From: Candidatus Accumulibacter meliphilus
GTDB lineage: Bacteria > Pseudomonadota > Gammaproteobacteria > Burkholderiales > Rhodocyclaceae
NCBI GenBank assembly: GCA_003332265.1
Contig: QPGA01000022.1
Span: forward strand, 1 to 32,233
DNA: 32,233 bases
Direction of reading: 5' to 3'
Notes under the pieces: model-generated
What the model was told of the DNA's origin: nothing
Seen by the model: the letters and a program-made list of their open reading frames with translations, nothing else
The model's database searches: none
Shown here: positions 1 to 8,204 of the stretch, one piece after another
Numbering within the stretch: the stretch's first letter is position 1
Layout: each line of letters begins with the position of its first letter
Translations under genes and position numbers: made by a program

Positions 1-279
1 GTTGACGAGCAGCGGCTTGCCCAGATAACGGGACAACTCGACCGGCTGTCCGTCGCGGTCGAGGAGCACGAAGTCGCCCAGCGCTCTGCCGATGGCGGCT
101 TGCGAAAAGGCGAAAGCGGCTTTCTCGTCGAGCGCGGTCAGCGTCAGGTCGCCGCGCAGCAGTCCCTGCGGCCGAGCCGTGAGCTTGGGCTGTTCGACGG
201 CGGCTTCATCGGCGAAGAGAGGGGAGGCTGTCAGAAGGAGAAACGCCGCCAGGAGGGCGCGAAAACAGGGACCAATCAT
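1..279 (-). CDS. SCO1/SenC family copper chaperone, N-terminal part (cut by window edge)
   Basis: This is the N-terminal 93 residues of a protein that runs off the left edge. It opens with a secretion signal (MIGPCFRALLAAFLLL, ending near SPLFA) and continues into the entry of a SCO thioredoxin-like fold, with LGDFVLLDRDGQPVEL and then LGKPLLVN. In the family the next residues carry the copper-binding CxxxC, which lies outside the window. SCO proteins deliver copper to the CuA site of haem-copper oxidases. The gene sits 44 bases downstream of cyoE on the same strand, so the two are probably co-transcribed. The ATG at 277-279 gives the signal peptide directly. Family assignment rests on the sequence pattern before the CxxxC and on the neighbour, so it is good but not complete. 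Confidence 0.75.
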   Translation of the reverse strand, partial: MIGPCFRALLAAFLLLTASPLFADEAAVEQPKLTARPQGLLRGDLTLTALDEKAAFAFSQAAIGRALGDFVLLDRDGQPVELSRYLGKPLLVN

Positions 280-323: not shown

Positions 324-1220
324 TCAGGACGCAAATTGACTGTCCACGATGGCGGCCAGCAGCACCAGTGTCAACTGAATCAATGAAGCGTGAAAGCAGG
401 CCATTGCCGATTTGCGGTGGGTGTCGCGAGTCAGCAGCCAGGCTTTGTGGATGAACAGGAAGCCACCGCTGGCGGCGCCGACGAAGTAGATCGCACCGAG
501 TCCGAAAGCCAGCGGTATGAAGGAGGCGGCGACCAGCGCCAGGGTGCTGAAGAAAATCGTTTTCGCCGCCCGCTGGTCACCGACAACCACCGGCAGCATC
601 GGCACGCCGGCGGCAGCGTAGTCGTCACGGAAAGCGATGGCCAGACTCCAGAAGTGCGGTGGCGTCCACAGGAAGAGGACCAGCGCCAGCGCCAGGGGTA
701 CGGCGCCGAGTTGCGGGTCGGCCGCCGTCGCCCCGGCGAGGACTGCCCAGCTACCGGCCAGGCCGCCGAAAACGATGTTCAGCCAGGTGCGGCGCTTGAG
801 CCAGACGGTATAGACGATGGCGTAGAAGAACGCACCGAGGAAGACGAAGAGCGCTGACCAGGCATTGAGTGCGATCCAGGCGGCGCCGACCGAAAGTACC
901 ATCAAGGCAGCAATCAGCAGCAGCCAGATGGGACCATGACGCAGTTCGCCGGTGACGAAGGGGCGCTTGCTGGTGCGCGCCATGAGGTGGTCGCTGTCGT
1001 GTTCGTAATACTGGTTGAAGGCGCCGGCGCTGGCCGATGAGATGAGTACCGAGAGGGTCAGTACCAGCAGTTGCAAGGGGCTCAGACTGGGGCCGGCGCC
1101 GACTGCCAGGCCGGCCAGGGCGGTAAAAGTGATGACTACGCCGATACGCAACTTGAAAAGGCCCAGAATGGCACGGAAAGGAAAGCCGGAAGTGCTGTTC
1201 GGTGGGAGCGTGGAGTGCAT
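324..1220 (-). CDS. cyoE: Protohaem IX farnesyltransferase (haem O synthase)
   Basis: CyoE/CtaB is a UbiA-superfamily membrane prenyltransferase that adds farnesyl to haem b to make haem O, the precursor of haem A. The 298-residue product has the usual length and about eight or nine hydrophobic segments. The first Asp-rich site is visible as NQYYEHDSDHLMARTSKRP (about residues 69-87) and the second polar loop as DDYAAAGVPMLPVVVGD (about 198-214). It shares a strand with the partial SCO gene downstream and lies in a cluster with two haem A synthase paralogues and a CuA-type haem-copper enzyme. The cluster therefore contains the whole haem O to haem A route. A dispersed repeat and hairpins separate it from the haem-copper operon upstream, so it may have its own transcript. 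Confidence 0.93.
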   Translation of the reverse strand: MHSTLPPNSTSGFPFRAILGLFKLRIGVVITFTALAGLAVGAGPSLSPLQLLVLTLSVLISSASAGAFNQYYEHDSDHLMARTSKRPFVTGELRHGPIWLLLIAALMVLSVGAAWIALNAWSALFVFLGAFFYAIVYTVWLKRRTWLNIVFGGLAGSWAVLAGATAADPQLGAVPLALALVLFLWTPPHFWSLAIAFRDDYAAAGVPMLPVVVGDQRAAKTIFFSTLALVAASFIPLAFGLGAIYFVGAASGGFLFIHKAWLLTRDTHRKSAMACFHASLIQLTLVLLAAIVDSQFAS

Positions 1221-1506: not shown

Positions 1507-3201
1507 TTAGCTGAGCAGCCAGACTTCGGAAAGGTATTTCCAGTTGACGAAGTAGTAGAGCACGAAGGACACGAAGAGCAGCAGGGCCAGGATCACCGTG
1601 CCGGGAACCGGCACGTGGTCGCTGCCGTGCGCCACGGCCGAGGCCGCTTGCGTGTTCGCCGGGATCGGGGTCGGCTTGTCGGAGACCTTGCCGCCGTCGA
1701 GTTTCTTGCCGAACAGCAGCGAGCCGACGATGAGCAGGATCCACAGGCCACCACCGATGACGGCGATGACCCCGAAGATACCGGTCAGGCCCATCATCAG
1801 GTAGGCGGCACCCGGCCATTCATACTGGAACGGTGCGCCCGAGAAGGCCATGTCCCAGTGCCGGCGGGAAACGCCCAGCGTACCGGCGCCCATCATCACC
1901 AGGCCGAGAATACCCATGCTGATGCCGTACAGGTAGGGCTGGATCTGGCATAGCTTCGGCAGGATCAACTCGCGCCGGAAGAGCACCGGAACGAGCAGGA
2001 AGGTGATCGACATGAAGGCCAGGGTGGTGCCGCTGACGACCGTGGTATGGAAGTGGCCCGGAACGTAGAAGGTGTTGTGCATCAGCATGTTGATCTGCTC
2101 GGTACCGAGGACGACACCGGAGATGCCGCCAAGGAAGCCGAAGCTGACCAGCGAGATGAACATGCCCGAGAACACCGGGTTGCCCCAGGGTGCCTTGCGC
2201 AGCCATTCGAAGATGCCGTTGGTGAAACCTCTGCGCCGTTGCGCGGCTTCGATTGCGCCAGGGACCGTGAAACCGTGGATCATCGAGGCCATCACCGCGA
2301 AGTACATGAAGTACGAGGTGTTGAGCACTTTCCACTCGGCGCTCATGCCCGGGTCGGACAGCAGGTGGTGCGCGCTGGCCAGTTGCAGGAAGAGGATGTA
2401 GAGCAGGAAGGCAAAACGCGAGACTTTCTCGGACAGCGGCTTGGCGTTGAAGAGTACGGCGGCAGTCAGATACCAGACCGAGACATGCGCGGCAACGTTG
2501 ATCTGCTGCGACGAGTGTCCGAGGCCCCACCACACCATGCGATACAACTGGGCGTCGATTTCCTTGATCCAGCCCATCGACCAGAAGAAGGTCGGGATCA
2601 GGATGCCGGCACCGGAAAGAATGGTGAAAGTGGCGATGATCGCCGCGGTCAGTGCGCCGAAAGTCACCAGCGGCAGCGAGCCCTGATAGGTCTTGTCCTT
2701 CTTGGCGACGACCAGCGTCCCGAAAAAGACGCAGGTACCGAGCAGAGCGCCGACGGCGACCAGGATGATGCCCAGGTAGAAGTGCGGCTGCGCCTGCATC
2801 GGCACGTAGGAGGTGAACATGACGCTCGATTCACCCTGGAAAACAGCAACGTTGGTGATGATGCCGCCGACGACCATCAGCCAGAAGCCGAGCCAGGCGA
2901 TTTTCGGTGTCGCAATTCGGCACCTCAGCAGAACCGATGAGGCGAAGTAGAGAACGGCCATTTCGAAGAACAGGATCCACAGGATCAGCATGTCGATGCC
3001 GTGGGCGGTGAGAATCAGGTAGAACTGGTCGGCCGGCAGCAGCTTGATCGCCGGCCAGCGGGTAAGGATCACCAGCAGCGCGGTGACGCCGCCTACCAGC
3101 AGCCAAAGGACGCCGGCGACGGCGTTCCAGCGCATCAGTTTCTCGGCCTGGTCCTCAAACTGCATTCCCGAGATCGGACAGGTGCGGTACGTTGTTGCCA
3201 T
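1507..3201 (-). CDS. Haem-copper enzyme subunit I, B-family-like, lacking the active-site Tyr (candidate nitric oxide reductase)
   Basis: This 564-residue polytopic protein belongs to the haem-copper superfamily. Visible ligands are His67 (low-spin haem), His229 (CuB), His278-His279 (CuB), His383 (high-spin haem) and His385 (low-spin haem, in VPGHFHTTVVSG). The ADP-like loop after the HH pair (HHLLSDPGMSAEWK) and the helix X motif resemble ba3-type B-family enzymes. In oxygen reductases the helix VI motif is HPxVY, with Tyr four residues after His; here it is HSSQQ, so Gln233 replaces Tyr. The C-family Tyr position, six before the HH pair, is Leu272. Loss of this Tyr is typical of NO reductases in the superfamily. 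A Glu80 (LFFEM) lies in helix II. The start has a strong GGGGGAG ribosome site, and the gene follows subunit II by 14 bases. Family membership is certain; NO reductase activity is inference. A divergent oxidase is the alternative. Confidence 0.85.
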   Translation of the reverse strand: MATTYRTCPISGMQFEDQAEKLMRWNAVAGVLWLLVGGVTALLVILTRWPAIKLLPADQFYLILTAHGIDMLILWILFFEMAVLYFASSVLLRCRIATPKIAWLGFWLMVVGGIITNVAVFQGESSVMFTSYVPMQAQPHFYLGIILVAVGALLGTCVFFGTLVVAKKDKTYQGSLPLVTFGALTAAIIATFTILSGAGILIPTFFWSMGWIKEIDAQLYRMVWWGLGHSSQQINVAAHVSVWYLTAAVLFNAKPLSEKVSRFAFLLYILFLQLASAHHLLSDPGMSAEWKVLNTSYFMYFAVMASMIHGFTVPGAIEAAQRRRGFTNGIFEWLRKAPWGNPVFSGMFISLVSFGFLGGISGVVLGTEQINMLMHNTFYVPGHFHTTVVSGTTLAFMSITFLLVPVLFRRELILPKLCQIQPYLYGISMGILGLVMMGAGTLGVSRRHWDMAFSGAPFQYEWPGAAYLMMGLTGIFGVIAVIGGGLWILLIVGSLLFGKKLDGGKVSDKPTPIPANTQAASAVAHGSDHVPVPGTVILALLLFVSFVLYYFVNWKYLSEVWLLS

Positions 3202-3215
3202 CTATTTACTCCCCC

Positions 3216-3755
3216 TTATTTCACGTAAATACGGCCGAGCATCCAGGAATGACCGATGCCGCAGTATTCGTTGCAGACGATGGCATAAGTGCCTTTTTTG
3301 GTCGGCGTCATCTTCACCACGTGCTCATAACCGGGGATCACCTGGATGTTGATGTTGACCGGTTGCAGCGAGAAGCCGTGGTTGTAGTCCATCGACGAGA
3401 GATGGATCTTGTAGGTCTGCCCTTCCTCGAGTTCGAGGATCGGGTACCAGGCCCAGAGGCGGGCGATCAGGTAGCCGTCGCCGCCCGGCGGGACTCTCAC
3501 CACCGGGATGTGCTGGTCGGTCTCGGTGCGGATGGTGTTTTCGTCGATGAATTTCTCGGCCTTGGCGGCGAACAGTTCGGGGGTGATCTTGTAAGCCTCG
3601 TTGGACAGGTTCTGCTTACCGTATATGTGCCAGTAGATCATCATCCCGAACATGATCATCCCCCATACGAAGGCGATCCCTATCCACGCCCATTCGACCT
3701 TGTCGATGGGTTGCTTCCACCATAGCCGATCTGACGGCGGCAGAATTGCACTCAT
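3216..3755 (-). CDS. Haem-copper enzyme subunit II with complete CuA site
   Basis: This 179-residue subunit II has one N-terminal membrane helix (about residues 21-43) and a periplasmic cupredoxin domain. All CuA ligands are present: His126 in MDYNHGFS, then Cys161, Glu163, Cys165, His169 and Met172 in CNEYCGIGHSWM. It should accept electrons from a soluble c-type cytochrome and pass them to subunit I. The short, single-helix form and the NINIQVIPG segment resemble the ba3-type subunit II rather than the two-helix aa3 form. It is the middle gene of a three-gene operon and has an AGGGAGAG ribosome site. CuA assembly probably depends on the SCO and PCu(A)C proteins encoded nearby. An intact CuA beside a Tyr-less subunit I is the notable combination here. 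Confidence 0.9.
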   Translation of the reverse strand: MSAILPPSDRLWWKQPIDKVEWAWIGIAFVWGMIMFGMMIYWHIYGKQNLSNEAYKITPELFAAKAEKFIDENTIRTETDQHIPVVRVPPGGDGYLIARLWAWYPILELEEGQTYKIHLSSMDYNHGFSLQPVNINIQVIPGYEHVVKMTPTKKGTYAIVCNEYCGIGHSWMLGRIYVK

Positions 3756-3785: not shown

Positions 3786-3935
3786 TTATTTGGCGACCGG
3801 GGTGTTCATGATGTCGATGATGCCCCACAGGATGTAGATCAGCCCTGGTGACGCCACACCGAGAAACAGGAGCAGGAAGTGGTTGTCCAGCAGCTTCTGC
3901 ATGAACGGGATGTCGTCGTCTTTGTCGTCGACCAT
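3786..3935 (-). CDS. 49-residue single-helix membrane protein, probable small subunit of the haem-copper enzyme
   Basis: The ORF begins with ATG at 3933-3935 behind AAGGAGG, a near-perfect ribosome site, and ends TAA at 3786-3788. The product starts with an acidic stretch (MVDDKDDDIPFMQK), continues with a hydrophobic helix of about 20 residues (roughly 19-40, FLLLFLGVASPGLIYILWGI) and ends NTPVAK. It is the first gene of the operon, 30 bases ahead of subunit II, directly under the FNR-type promoter. Small one-helix subunits (IIa-like) are known in ba3-type oxidases, so a structural subunit role is reasonable. I do not recognise a named family. The strong ribosome site and operon position make it a real gene. 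Confidence 0.78.
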   Translation of the reverse strand: MVDDKDDDIPFMQKLLDNHFLLLFLGVASPGLIYILWGIIDIMNTPVAK

Positions 3936-4028: not shown

Positions 4029-4071
4029 AGAATACCTGCTCTTGCCCTGCTTTTGATTTGATGCACGTCAA
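4029..4071 (-). promoter_or_regulatory. FNR/Dnr-type box with class II -10 for the haem-copper operon
   Basis: Positions 4058-4071 read TTGATGCACGTCAA, one mismatch from the FNR/Dnr consensus TTGAT-N4-ATCAA. On the minus strand the next -10-like hexamer is TATTCT at 4029-4034. The box centre and the -10 centre are about 33 bases apart, as expected when the activator sits at -41.5. This predicts transcription from about 4023 and an 88-base leader to the 49-residue ORF. The spacing supports an anaerobic or NO-responsive CRP/FNR-family activator. Confidence 0.65.
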
Positions 4072-4190: not shown

Positions 4191-4242
4191 TCGCGCTTTG
4201 CTTTCCTCGCTTCGCTTTCCTCTTTCCTCCCGGGTTCATCGT

Positions 4243-5319
4243 ATGAATAAAGTCGCTCGCCGGCAAGTTGCGCTGTGGTTGTTCATCTGCAGCGCCATGG
4301 TCTTTGCAATTCTGGTCGTCGGCGGCGTCACCCGCCTGACACATTCCGGGCTGTCGATCGTCGAGTGGAAGCCGATCGTCGGCATCGTTCCACCGCTCAA
4401 CCAGGCCGAGTGGGACGAGACTTTCGAGAAATACAAGAAGACGCCGGAGTACCACAAGGTCAACCACCAGATGGGGCTCGAGGAGTTCAAGGGAATCTTC
4501 TTCTGGGAGTACTGGCACCGTGTTCTCGGGCGCCTGATCGGTGTCGTCTTCCTGCTGCCCTTCCTCTATTTCTGCTGGCGACGCAAGATCGACCCGCCGC
4601 TGCTGCCCAAGCTGCTCGGCATCTTCGTGCTCGGCGGGCTGCAGGGCGCGATGGGCTGGTACATGGTCAAGAGCGGCCTGATCGATGATCCGCGCGTCAG
4701 CCAGTATCGCCTGACGGCGCACCTGTCGCTGGCCTTCCTGATTTTCGTGGCCATGATGTGGCTGGCGCTCGGCCTGCTCAGCGAGCGCCGCCGCCTTGGT
4801 AGCGCCACCGGCGCGACCGGCGCGACCAGTGAGTTGACGCTGAAAGGCTTGCAGCGCTTCGCTTTCTGGCTGGCGATCCTGGTCGGCTATATGGTCGTCA
4901 GTGGCGGCCTGGTGGCTGGCATTCGGGCCGGCAAGGCCTACAACAGTTTTCCGCTGATGAACGGGCATATCTTGCCGCCGGAAAGCTTCAGCATCGATCC
5001 CTGGTATCTGAATTTCTTCAATAATATGGCCCTGGTGCAGTTCGACCACCGCCTGGGGGCATGGCTGTTGGCTTTTCTGGTGCCCTGGTTGTGGTGGAAG
5101 ATCAGGGCAGCCGCGCTTTCGCGCAGCGCCCGCCTGGCCGCGACTCTGGTCCTGGTAGCCGTATTCCTGCAGATCGTGCTCGGGATCTCGACCTTGCTGC
5201 TGGCCGTTCCGGTTGGCCTCGGTGCAGCACATCAGGGGGGGGCGATGATCGTTCTCGGCCTGCTGCTGTGGTTGAATCACCAACTGCGGGTACAGCCGGT
5301 GGCGGGCAGCGCCGCTTGA
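4243..5319 (+). CDS. ctaA: Haem A synthase, COX15/CtaA family (type with all four haem-ligand His)
   Basis: CtaA/COX15 is a membrane monooxygenase that oxidises the C8 methyl of haem O to a formyl group to give haem A. The 358-residue product has eight predicted helices in two related halves. The four conserved His are visible in the contexts WHRVLGR, TAHLSLAF, FDHRLGAW and AAHQGGAM. The N-terminal signature VVGGVTRLTHSGLSIVEW is typical of the proteobacterial/mitochondrial type without loop cysteine pairs. An upstream in-frame ATG exists at 4090, but the extra 51 residues look non-coding and the ATG at 4243 starts exactly at the family N-terminus. It is divergent from the haem-copper operon and overlaps a second CtaA-like gene by four bases, so both are probably translated together. 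Confidence 0.9.
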   Translation: MNKVARRQVALWLFICSAMVFAILVVGGVTRLTHSGLSIVEWKPIVGIVPPLNQAEWDETFEKYKKTPEYHKVNHQMGLEEFKGIFFWEYWHRVLGRLIGVVFLLPFLYFCWRRKIDPPLLPKLLGIFVLGGLQGAMGWYMVKSGLIDDPRVSQYRLTAHLSLAFLIFVAMMWLALGLLSERRRLGSATGATGATSELTLKGLQRFAFWLAILVGYMVVSGGLVAGIRAGKAYNSFPLMNGHILPPESFSIDPWYLNFFNNMALVQFDHRLGAWLLAFLVPWLWWKIRAAALSRSARLAATLVLVAVFLQIVLGISTLLLAVPVGLGAAHQGGAMIVLGLLLWLNHQLRVQPVAGSAA

Positions 5320-6281
5320 TTGCCAGCCAGGCTTTGCGACTGCAGAAAATCCGGACGATTGCCTGTTGGCTGACGGCGCTGTCGCTGCTGGTGGTGCTGC
5401 TCAGCGCCTGGCTGCGCCTTGCAGCGGCCGGTCTCGGCTGTGCCGATTGGCCCGCCTGCTACGCGCAACTGCTGAGCGGCGAGCCGCTGCTGCAGACCTG
5501 CGGCCTACTGCGCCTGCTGCATCGCGCGACGGCCTCGCTGGCGCTACTGCTGGCCTGCTATCTCGCGTGGCTGTGCTGGCGGCGTCCGTCGCTGCCGTCG
5601 CCGGCACGTCCGGCAAGCATGCTGGTGGCCTTGGTGCTGGCGCTGGCGGTGCTCGGTTTCTGGAGTTCGGATCCGCGGCTGGCGGGCGTTGCTTTCCTGA
5701 ACATCCTCGGCGGCCTCGGCCTGGTGAGCTTCTCGTGGCGAGTGGTTCTGGCCAGCACGCCGGATGCGCTGCTGACCGGAACAGGAGCTTCGGCCCCGCC
5801 GAGGCTGGTGCTGTGTCTCGGTGGCGCTGCGCTGTCGGTGACTGTCATCCTCGGGGCACTGATCGGCGCCCGTTACGCCGCCGTGGCCTGTACGTCGTTT
5901 CCGGATTGTGCTGGAAGCTGGTGGCCGACGGCAGCCGGCTGGGCGGCCCTGCAGGCCTTTGCGAGCTTGGCGGAAGCGCCGCCTGCGGGCGAAGCCGGGG
6001 GGCTCAGCCTGCATCTGTTGCACCGCTGGAGCGCTTTGCTCACCCTGCTCGTGCTGGGCGCTGCTGCCTGGCAGGCATTTGCTAATGGCGTGACGCGCAG
6101 GGCAGCCGTGGCGCTGCTGGTGCTACTGATCGCGCAGCTGGCGATCGGGGCGCTGACCGTGATCAGTGGCTTCAGTCTGTGGCTGGCGATCGCGCATGGC
6201 GTCGGCGCGGCCGCCCTGCTGGCCGCCCTGGCGACCTTTCGGCGCCGCTGCTCTGGCCCCGCTGACCCGGGGGCGGCATGA
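5316..6281 (+). CDS. Second CtaA/COX15-like protein with loop cysteine pairs and one haem-ligand His replaced
   Basis: This 321-residue membrane protein is also CtaA/COX15-like, of the cysteine-containing type. The first half has GLGCADWPAC and the second ACTSFPDC, the paired loop cysteines seen in Bacillus-type CtaA. Conserved His appear in LLHRATAS, LLHRWSAL and AIAHGVGA. At the remaining expected site (the family's AHL helix) the sequence is FLNILGG, so Asn stands where His is expected. It may not bind both haems in the normal way and could be an accessory factor for haem A synthesis or delivery. The likely start is TTG at 5316, overlapping the previous stop as TTGA; a second TTG follows at 5334. 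The longer frame from 5061 lies inside ctaA and was not used. Enzymatic activity is uncertain. Confidence 0.8.
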   Translation: MIASQALRLQKIRTIACWLTALSLLVVLLSAWLRLAAAGLGCADWPACYAQLLSGEPLLQTCGLLRLLHRATASLALLLACYLAWLCWRRPSLPSPARPASMLVALVLALAVLGFWSSDPRLAGVAFLNILGGLGLVSFSWRVVLASTPDALLTGTGASAPPRLVLCLGGAALSVTVILGALIGARYAAVACTSFPDCAGSWWPTAAGWAALQAFASLAEAPPAGEAGGLSLHLLHRWSALLTLLVLGAAAWQAFANGVTRRAAVALLVLLIAQLAIGALTVISGFSLWLAIAHGVGAAALLAALATFRRRCSGPADPGAA

Positions 6282-6349: not shown

Positions 6350-6826
6350 TCAGTGCGTTTTGTGCTCGCTCGCCGCTGTGCCGCTGGCGGTCAGGTCGCG
6401 CACTTCGGCCTGAACTTCGATCACTTGCACGCTCTTGTCCGGGCCCTCGACCTGCAGCGTCAACGGGATCGAATCCCCTTTCGTCAGCGGCTGCTTGAGC
6501 TTCATGAGCATCACATGGTAGCCGCCAGGGGCCAGCTGTACCGGCTTGCCGGCCGGCAGTTCGAGGCGGCTTACGGCGCGCATCTTCATGATCCCGCCGT
6601 CCATCTTCATTTCGTGAATTTCGCTGACCGCTGCGACCGGGCTGGCGGCGCCGACGAGCGTCGCGCCCGACTTGCTGGTGATTTCCAGGAAAGCGCCGGT
6701 GGCCTGCTGGCCGGTCACCGTTCCGCGTATCCAGGCATCCTTGACTTCGACATCGGCGGCCAGCGCTGCTGTTGCCGACAGGCTGAACAGGAAGGCCATC
6801 GCCAGTTGGGTTCGTGTCGCTTTCAA
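6350..6826 (-). CDS. PCu(A)C periplasmic copper chaperone
   Basis: PCu(A)C proteins bind Cu(I) in the periplasm and help to metallate CuA sites of haem-copper oxidases with SCO proteins. The copper motif H-X10-M-X21-H-X-M fits exactly, from HEMKMDGG to GGYHVML. A signal peptide ends near ATAALA, followed by ADVEVKDAWIR, the usual start of the mature domain. Three ATG codons (6839-6847) open the frame, but AAGGAG at 6833-6838 lies six bases before TTG at 6824-6826. Starting there gives MKATRTQLAMAFLFS, a cleaner signal peptide of normal length, so I prefer it; the ATG at 6847 is the alternative. A His-containing tail (SEHKTH) follows the domain. The gene lies downstream of the SCO and DUF1318-like genes on the same strand and fits the CuA assembly theme. 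Confidence 0.88.
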   Translation of the reverse strand: MKATRTQLAMAFLFSLSATAALAADVEVKDAWIRGTVTGQQATGAFLEITSKSGATLVGAASPVAAVSEIHEMKMDGGIMKMRAVSRLELPAGKPVQLAPGGYHVMLMKLKQPLTKGDSIPLTLQVEGPDKSVQVIEVQAEVRDLTASGTAASEHKTH

Positions 6827-6942
6827 ACCGTACTCCTTCATCATCATGCAAAGGCCTTGATTATAAGTGGCGGTCCGTGGGGTCTGCGTGCGACAAGATG
6901 CCGCACACTCCGCACCAGGGAGCGGGTCCGGCCGGCAAGGAA

Positions 6943-7389: not shown

Positions 7390-7971
7390 TCATTGGCCAT
7401 CGAGCAGCTGTTTGATATCGCTGGCGACGCTGTCGGCGGGCTCGCCGTGGCGGACCAGCAGTCGTAGCCGGCCCTGCGGGTCAAAGATGTAGCTGCCGGT
7501 GCTGTGGTCCATGGAGTAGGTGGCGGGCGTGCTGCCGGCTTGCTTGGCGTAGAAGACCTTGAACTCCTTGGCGGCGACAGCGGTGGCGTCGTCGTCGCCG
7601 CGCAGGCCGATGAAGCTCGGATCGAAGGCGGTGACGTAGCCGGACAGGAGTTGCGCGCTATCACGCTCCGGGTCGAGGGTGACGAAAAGGACTTGCACGC
7701 GACTGGCGCTGTCGCCGAGGCGCTTGAGCACGTCACGCATCGCCAGCAGTGTCGTCGGGCAAACGTCAGGACACTGGGTATAGCCGAAGAAGAGAACGAT
7801 CGCCTGGCCCTTGAAATCCGCCAGCTGGCGCGGCTTGCCGTTGTGGTCGGTCAAACTCAAGGTCTTGCCCCAATCGACGCCGGTGATGTCGCTGGACTTG
7901 AAAGCCACTGGCTGAGAACACGCCGAGAGCAGCAGGGAGATGGACAGGATCAGCGTCGAAAGGATTTTCAT
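7390..7971 (-). CDS. SCO1/SenC family lipoprotein, copper chaperone
   Basis: This 193-residue protein is a SCO-type thioredoxin-fold chaperone that loads copper into CuA. A lipobox (LSAC, lipid Cys18) anchors it to the membrane. The copper ligands are all visible: Cys67 and Cys71 in CPDVC, and His155 in MDHSTGSYIFD. GYTQCPDVCPTTL and FVTLDPERD are classic family segments. The frame stays open upstream to 8334 through a dispersed repeat, but the ATG at 7969-7971 gives the signal peptide, so that start is used. It is the second SCO gene in the window. Together with the partial one at the left edge it suggests two SCO proteins serving different oxidases or different steps. Confidence 0.92.
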   Translation of the reverse strand: MKILSTLILSISLLLSACSQPVAFKSSDITGVDWGKTLSLTDHNGKPRQLADFKGQAIVLFFGYTQCPDVCPTTLLAMRDVLKRLGDSASRVQVLFVTLDPERDSAQLLSGYVTAFDPSFIGLRGDDDATAVAAKEFKVFYAKQAGSTPATYSMDHSTGSYIFDPQGRLRLLVRHGEPADSVASDIKQLLDGQ

Positions 7972-8204
7972 GGTCGTCTTTGCTTGTCGCGAACGTCTGT
8001 TGTGCAGAGCGAGAAAGGTAGCGTTGGTCACTTGTTCGTTGCCCGTGGGTGGCCGGGGGAGCCTGCTGCGGCGGCGCTGGAGCGGCTGGCGTGGCGGTTT
8101 TCCGGTCGGGAAGGCTGCCTGTCCATCGTCGCCCGCCGTGGCCGACATCTTGCGCTCAGGCCGGCATTGTCCCGACCGCGCGGGCCTGCTGCCTTGATTC
8201 AGGT

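Follow-up and report, generated by a model that had tools for sequence, protein, structure and literature searches.

A predicted eNOR-type nitric oxide reductase of Candidatus Accumulibacter with glutamine at the active-site tyrosine position

The heme-copper nitric oxide (NO) reductases of the eNOR family, traced to Hemp and Gennis 2008 (cited in PMC8756737), are recognized by a glutamine (Gln) at the active site and by an adjacent cupredoxin subunit; they have one predicted proton channel, energy conservation has been suggested as possible for them, and they often are mislabeled as cytochrome oxidases (PMC8756737; this and the other papers are cited from excerpts, to which our statements about them refer). 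Table A4 of that paper gives the residue at this site as asparagine (Asn) in sNOR and CuANor, aspartate (Asp) in gNOR, Gln in eNOR, and glutamate (Glu) in cNOR and qNOR, and its sequence set already named one Rhodocyclaceae and one Thermus sequence. Murali et al. are cited on the eNOR family in PMC11388526 and PMC12569097, and the former counts eNOR among the biochemically characterized NO reductases, with NO reduction under microoxic conditions. A reference set that derives from Murali et al. and comprises 67 NO reductase and 865 other sequences is described in PMC12569097. Here, we analyze a locus of Candidatus Accumulibacter meliphilus (assembly GCA_003332265.1, contig QPGA01000022.1) that, judged from its sequence, very probably encodes an eNOR, a B-family-related NO reductase. 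The whole stretch of 32,233 nucleotides that was analyzed is called the window below.

Candidatus Accumulibacter is a suspected source of nitrous oxide (N2O). It also is a key phosphorus-removing organism of wastewater treatment (PMC6446978), and papers on it describe NirS as present almost everywhere and NO reductase as patchy (PMC6446978, PMC9238405, PMC10949500, and PMC12766714). norZ was reported in few genomes only (PMC6446978), norBC in 2 metagenome-assembled genomes (MAGs) (PMC9238405), and neither norZ nor norBC in the excerpted account of a new A. meliphilus MAG (PMC10949500); norB in 44 MAGs versus norC in 6 was termed "a common bottleneck" (PMC12766714). A two-gene "ba3 oxidase," cbaA/cbaB, with an FNR motif upstream, was described as a terminal oxidase of all Accumulibacter genomes (PMC6446978). 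We found no publication naming both "Accumulibacter" and "eNOR"; the PNAS paper of Murali et al., which lay outside our coverage, may do so.

The original prediction, made from the bare sequence, was that positions 1507..3201 encode a heme-copper subunit I with Gln in place of the active-site tyrosine (Tyr), a candidate noncanonical NO reductase. The coordinates stand, and the strand, which had gone unmentioned, is minus: an open reading frame (ORF) of 564 amino acids runs from an ATG at 3201 to a stop at 1509-1507 and matches PF00115 with 208 bits, and the plus-strand reading of 1507-3201 is interrupted by stops. Every residue listed in the prediction is present in the translation, namely, the heme and CuB histidines 67, 229, 278, 279, 383, and 385, the HSSQQ motif, Gln233, and Leu272. 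Alignment to Thermus ba3 predicts that H67 and H385 bind the low-spin heme, H383 the high-spin heme, and H229, H278, and H279 CuB. HMMER aligns H229-S-S-Q-Q233 with H-P-I-V-Y of Thermus ba3 (PDB 1ehk), which places Gln233 at the cross-linked Tyr site, and with H-P-V-V-Y of PDB 7deg, which we take to be an Aquifex protein. In a MAFFT alignment, the Gln233 column holds Tyr in 15 sequences (13 B-family proteins, an odd protein from Azospirillum, and the A-family oxidase of the window's genome). The column of Leu272 holds the Tyr of the genome's own CcoN, in agreement with its proposed equivalence to the alternative Tyr of the C family, and this position is Leu or Ile in the Gln-type sequences. 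The helix VI Tyr that marks the B family, four residues after the CuB His, thus is Gln233 here, and the helix VII Tyr of the C family (cbb3), six residues before the His-His pair, is Leu272. By alignment, Gln233 would face CuB. The Gln site is not a chance feature, since Gln232 and Gln233 are invariant in all 51 aligned sequences (the window and 50 others with 46-89% identity to it) and Gln233 is readable and kept in 28 of 28 genomes of the genus, the window's included.

A phylogeny of subunit I had been proposed as the check, with placement inside a clade of proven O2 reductases as the contrary outcome. We built an unrooted IQ-TREE phylogeny of 47 sequences, some of them long, which omitted locus L165 (an antisense frame had been picked) and in which L162 was represented by its last 590 residues. 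The 25 Gln-type sequences form one group with moderate support (ultrafast bootstrap, 89; Shimodaira-Hasegawa-like approximate likelihood ratio test, 90). It lies beside, not inside, a separate group of the 13 Tyr-type B-family sequences (96/92), and five Glu-type NO reductases form a third group (100/99). Gln-type homologues from Thermus, Thermomicrobium, and Defluviimonas cluster with the window protein. The contrary outcome thus was not seen, and the separation from both Tyr-type B-family oxidases and Glu-type NO reductases was obtained, in a sequence set to which the named eNORs of Rhodothermus, Ardenticatena, and Natronomonas are external references. An AlphaFold2 model of subunit I (21 sequences) has the expected fold, with a mean predicted local distance difference test score (pLDDT) of 74.7 and a predicted template modeling score of 0.81; its weak spots are residues 227-230 in helix VI, which are nonhelical, and residues 364-378 and 445-459, with pLDDT below 50. 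When the PDB was searched with this model, ranks 1 to 21 were taken by 7deg and Thermus ba3 entries (7deg_A, E value of 4.0e-17).

The gene directly upstream (3216..3755, minus strand, 179 amino acids) encodes subunit II, with a CuA domain (PF00116, 27.6 bits) and a complete CuA set consisting of H126, C161, E163, C165, H169, and M172. Of 140 loci, 132 have an ORF with the Cys/Glu/Cys/His/Met motif that ends at most 400 bp before subunit I; in the remaining eight, the contig is cut, the frame is broken, or Asp replaces Glu (Thermus). Conservation of the CuA motif (133 sequences) is partly circular, because subunit II was chosen by that motif, and H126 (100%) alone is independent.

The locus resembles the eNOR family in its Gln site, its full set of heme and CuB ligands, its cupredoxin subunit II directly upstream, and its labeling as an oxidase; all of the defining features tested here are alike. 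Because Gln at the site and an adjacent cupredoxin subunit match the published definition, as excerpted (PMC8756737), the candidate NO reductase of the original prediction can be sharpened to a predicted eNOR, a reading that the tree also supports. It thus would be a member of an already known family, and what is unusual is its reach across all genus genomes searched, probably under an oxidase name. Compared with B-family ba3 (Thermus; 7deg), the protein is alike in fold, ligand spacing, CuA subunit, and the K-path columns, in which Y244, S257, S306, and T312 align with residues that we take to form the ba3 K-path; it differs in having Gln for Tyr and His309 for a K-path Thr and in its separate tree group. 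With qNOR and cNOR it shares the proposed reduction of 2 NO to N2O and the missing active-site Tyr, but they have Glu where it has Gln, and they are distant in the tree. The same genome carries a qNOR at G000:C24.

Upstream of subunit II, an ORF preceded by AGGAGG (3786..3935, minus strand) encodes a 49-amino-acid protein that contains a single hydrophobic helix and is a candidate third subunit. A profile detected this small ORF before subunit II at all 122 loci where there is room for it (24/24 genus, 67/67 named, 28/28 class, and 3/3 plasmid loci) and gave no match in reverse-strand or shuffled controls. Named and class loci, which may share genomes, served to train the profile; the 24 genus and 3 plasmid loci alone are independent of the training. 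The count leaves aside genus loci L131, L132, L133, and L141, named loci L056 and L057, and class locus L033, which have no room or no subunit II, and the named group leaves aside L036-L045 and L055 as Accumulibacter. A regular expression missed the ORF in 9 of the 122 loci, all recovered by the profile. Synonymous changes make up 2,505 of 2,975 codon differences between pairs within the genus and 1,007 of 2,317 in comparisons, at large distances, with all 112 others. The protein has no Pfam match up to an E value of 0.5 and no NCBIfam match up to 0.01. Because several B-family plasmid operons also carry a short gene directly before subunit II, the small protein may be the counterpart of the small subunit IIa of ba3.

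Among 369 genomes spread over the class, one of them the window's own, 34 have the subunit I gene (E value of at most 1e-60). A scan of named genomes confirmed at least 555 of at least 592 candidate stretches, of which the best 80 were kept; among the matches listed, the nearest named loci belong to Candidatus Accumulibacter genomes (99%; L036 and L037). More distant homologues of the Gln type are plasmid encoded, in Defluviimonas (62.7%), Thermomicrobium roseum (50.0%), and Thermus thermophilus (about 48%). Archaeal eNORs were sought among haloarchaeal plasmid matches, and the four examined all carry Tyr. In the genus, all 28 genomes searched have the eNOR gene. Broken or shortened subunit I frames, possibly assembly errors, occur at L143 (G377), L144 (G394), and L145 (G382), and G394 has a second, partial copy that contains a stop.

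We then inventoried the denitrification genes of these 28 genomes. NirS-class PF02239 matches (>430 bits) are present in 27, all except G373, and two examples from the window's genome match N-terminal cytochrome c models. A Glu-type NO reductase is present in 10 genomes: qNOR in seven, a NorB of about 455 amino acids in two, and a 458-amino-acid NorB-like protein in two, with G376 having two kinds. Inspection of the sequences showed the Glu motif in five proteins and three further full-length qNORs; the rest were assigned by score and length. The 458-amino-acid proteins (L148:661-2037 in G383 and L149:250-1626 in G388) are on a different branch than the NorB proteins of G375 and G376. NosZ propeller matches occur in 15 genomes. 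Seventeen of the 28 therefore have NirS and eNOR without a Glu-type NO reductase, and 11 of these 17 also have no NosZ match; absences are upper limits, because several of the genomes are incomplete MAGs.

In the 28 genomes, PF00115 matches comprise A-family oxidases (three score classes), CcoN, eNOR, Glu-type NO reductases, and a CuB-poor homologue described below, and no Tyr-type B-family oxidase was met among them, with at least one example per class read. The "ba3" of the literature therefore most likely is the eNOR. The "ba3 oxidase" cbaA/cbaB also is like this locus in its genus-wide presence, its two subunits, and its upstream FNR motif; it differs in having been described as a terminal oxidase (PMC6446978). 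If the "ba3 oxidase" is eNOR, the NO reductase gap in Accumulibacter closes, published aerobic-respiration transcripts become NO-reduction transcripts, and the 11 genomes with NirS and eNOR but neither a Glu-type NO reductase nor a NosZ match would be predicted to stop denitrification at N2O.

The window has a single zero-mismatch match to an FNR-type pattern, the FNR/DNR-type palindrome TTGATGCACGTCAA at 4058..4071, whose center lies 129 bp before the start of the small ORF. All 24 genus loci have a zero-mismatch box, 124-161 bp ahead of the small ORF; when up to one mismatch was allowed, 40 of 61 named loci and 24 of 27 class loci had a box. Simple base shuffles, used as controls, gave 0.4, 1.0, and 0.9, respectively. 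The loci counted are those in which the regular expression found the small ORF and which have at least 200 bp upstream. Downstream of subunit I on the same strand are a heme O synthase gene, CtaB/CyoE (324..1220, minus; TIGR01473, 271.1 bits against a cutoff of 210.3), and the start of an SCO-family copper chaperone gene (1..279, minus), cut by the contig end. On the other side lies a gene for a heme A synthase-like CtaA/COX15 protein (4240..5319, plus; PF02628, 370.7 bits; NCBIfam, 324.3 bits, below the 550-bit cutoff), which here is transcribed divergently from the eNOR operon, as it is at 14 of 51 loci. It is followed directly by one for a second, diverged CtaA/COX15-like protein (5349..6281, plus; PF02628, 109.7 bits; NCBIfam HemSynCtaA, only 38.3 bits). 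Two possible assembly factors lie farther along: a PCuAC copper chaperone, possibly for CuA (6350..6847, minus; PF04314, 123.5 bits), found near eNOR in 3 of 72 loci, so that this linkage is not conserved, and an SCO1/SenC copper chaperone (7390..7983, minus; PF02630, 144 bits), a type found near eNOR in 9 of 72 loci, a weakly conserved linkage.

In the mechanism that we propose, a periplasmic cytochrome c or cupredoxin would deliver electrons to CuA, which implies a one-electron periplasmic donor, and the electrons would pass through the low-spin heme to the heme-CuB site, where 2 NO + 2 e- + 2 H+ would yield N2O + H2O. O2 splitting is disfavored because the Tyr, the donor of an extra electron and proton, is missing. 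A K-channel-like path (Tyr244, Ser257, Ser306, His309, and Thr312 of subunit I and Glu21 of subunit II) may bring protons from the cytoplasm, in which case NO reduction would be energy conserving. An FNR/DNR-type regulator binding at 4058-4071 probably controls the operon, and across the genus eNOR would be the general consumer of NirS-made NO.

A different reading of the locus is a high-affinity ba3-type O2 reductase that would use another residue (e.g., Y268, Y297, or Y300) or an outside electron for O-O cleavage. Several observations lean toward it or away from eNOR. The closest solved structures are B-family oxidases, and heme and copper assembly genes adjoin the locus, CtaA and CtaB being neighbors typical of oxidases. 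No classical denitrification gene was recognized among the scanned window genes, and NirS lies in the examined flank of only 6 of 72 relatives. FNR boxes also occur before cbb3 oxidases, so the box points to O2 or NO control and not to the substrate. A ba3 K-path Thr position holds His309, and three other tyrosines are conserved in the Gln-type sequences (Y268 in 25/25, Y297 in 25/25, and Y300 in 24/25) and nearly absent from the Tyr-type ones. Finally, PMC6446978 treats the two-subunit ba3 as a terminal oxidase whose transcripts in UW-LDO-IC grouped with aa3 and were lower when FNR was active, and we infer, as probable, that cbaA/cbaB is this gene. The transcript picture is mixed, since "ba3" was high anaerobically in UW-1 and dropped on aeration (PMC6446978). 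The original prediction had named another Tyr beside CuB as contrary to it; at the sequence level, the two known Tyr positions hold Gln and Leu, as it expected, and Y268, Y297, and Y300, which it did not mention, are conserved. Y268, ten residues N-terminal of His278, probably is too far from CuB. A cross-linked Tyr is, to our knowledge, a general feature of the O2 reductases in the heme-copper superfamily, and here Gln is fixed in all 51 aligned sequences, with Leu or Ile at the C-family position; moreover, eNOR is reported as a characterized NO reductase (PMC11388526). With Tyr missing at both known positions and the tree as it is, we regard an O2 reductase as highly improbable.

Still less probable is another NO reductase family with a cupredoxin subunit (sNOR, bNOR/CuANOR, gNOR, or nNOR); it would have the same architecture of heme-copper and cupredoxin subunits, and it is disfavored by the residue at the site, which is Gln here versus Asn in sNOR and CuANor and Asp in gNOR, the families covered by Table A4 of PMC8756737 as excerpted. 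The eNOR may serve mainly in NO detoxification at oxic-anoxic transitions and not in energy conservation, a possibility that we hold to be real if the weaker one and that overlaps with eNOR as assigned above, the chemistry being the same. That eNOR also is present alongside qNOR, as in this genome, would fit detoxification, as would genes in the neighborhood of two remote homologues, namely, those for an Rrf2 regulator and DUF542 in Thermus and one for hemerythrin in Defluviimonas. Rrf2, DUF542, and hemerythrin are linked to NO, and these neighbors fit the eNOR assignment in general. The small changes of "ba3" transcripts in UW-LDO-IC (PMC6446978) point the same way. A respiratory role is suggested instead by the CuA entry, by the K-path-like residue set, and by the conserved operon with heme and copper assembly and membrane cytochrome b genes.

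This conserved operon extends beyond the window. Linkage was counted by directed tblastn in 51 relatives with at least 7 kb downstream. The genes that follow on the same strand are those for CtaB (42 relatives), SCO (49), a cytochrome b/4Fe-4S/FlpD fusion (47), a 168-amino-acid protein without assigned function (49), and a cytochrome b/2Fe-2S/FAD/NAD fusion (46); the fusion domains were read in L047, L087, and L118. Membrane cytochrome b fusions downstream of eNOR lie, for example, at L047:11826-13424, L047:13984-15894, and L172:2214-6307. The end of the window contig falls within the SCO gene (window 1-279), as does the start of contig C99 from that assembly (L172:1-654), which also carries the next three genes of the cluster. 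About 0.9 kb of C99 (684-1572) has no counterpart in the sibling L170.

A further PF00115 homologue flanks eNOR in 44 of the 51 relatives, in 39 on the same strand. In the 12 readable sequences of its alignment (L115 and L168 are absent from the output, and L046 is a fragment), it keeps the equivalents of H67, H229, H383, and H385, has Phe at the Tyr site, and has a non-His residue and Tyr in place of the helix VII His-His pair of CuB. This CuB-poor homologue is present in 28 of 34 eNOR genomes of the class versus 16 of 335 others (Fisher P = 4.9e-25, kinship ignored) and, as assigned by score class, in 24 of the 28 genus genomes. That of the window's genome is at G000:C63:15223-16398 (L152:2577-4208, minus), and others are at L087:11187-12617, L168, L171, and elsewhere. 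We met no description of it in the literature excerpts examined, and published families such as nNOR lie outside this comparison. A class-wide search for the cytochrome b/NADH fusion (187 of 369 genomes) is unusable as a co-occurrence test, because most of the listed matches cover the reductase half only.

Neither the small ORF, the FNR-type box, nor linkage to the cytochrome b fusions and the CuB-poor homologue is mentioned in the excerpts of the eNOR literature examined. Tentatively, and with the odds rather against it, the proteobacterial eNOR might be the core of a larger, undescribed respiratory module comprising the one-helix subunit, the CuA subunit II, subunit I, both cytochrome b fusions, and the CuB-poor homologue; it would carry out NO reduction genus-wide in Accumulibacter and make strains without NosZ N2O producers. 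Within such a module, the 2Fe-2S/FAD/NAD cytochrome b fusion could be the point of electron entry from reduced nicotinamide adenine dinucleotide (NADH). Because the CuB-poor homologue has lost two of the three CuB histidines and kept heme ligands, it could be a heme relay, an NO binder, or an assembly partner, not an oxidase. The roles given here to the two cytochrome b proteins and the CuB-poor homologue are conjecture.

Two homologues from other organisms have unusual ligand sets. A protein encoded by an Azospirillum brasilense plasmid (L167, NZ_CP059450.1) has HNLHY in helix VI, and its CuB His-His pair is replaced by Tyr-His. In the Gln-type homologue of Thermus thermophilus pHB5018d (L116:11983-13665), Lys is aligned with the low-spin heme ligand H385.

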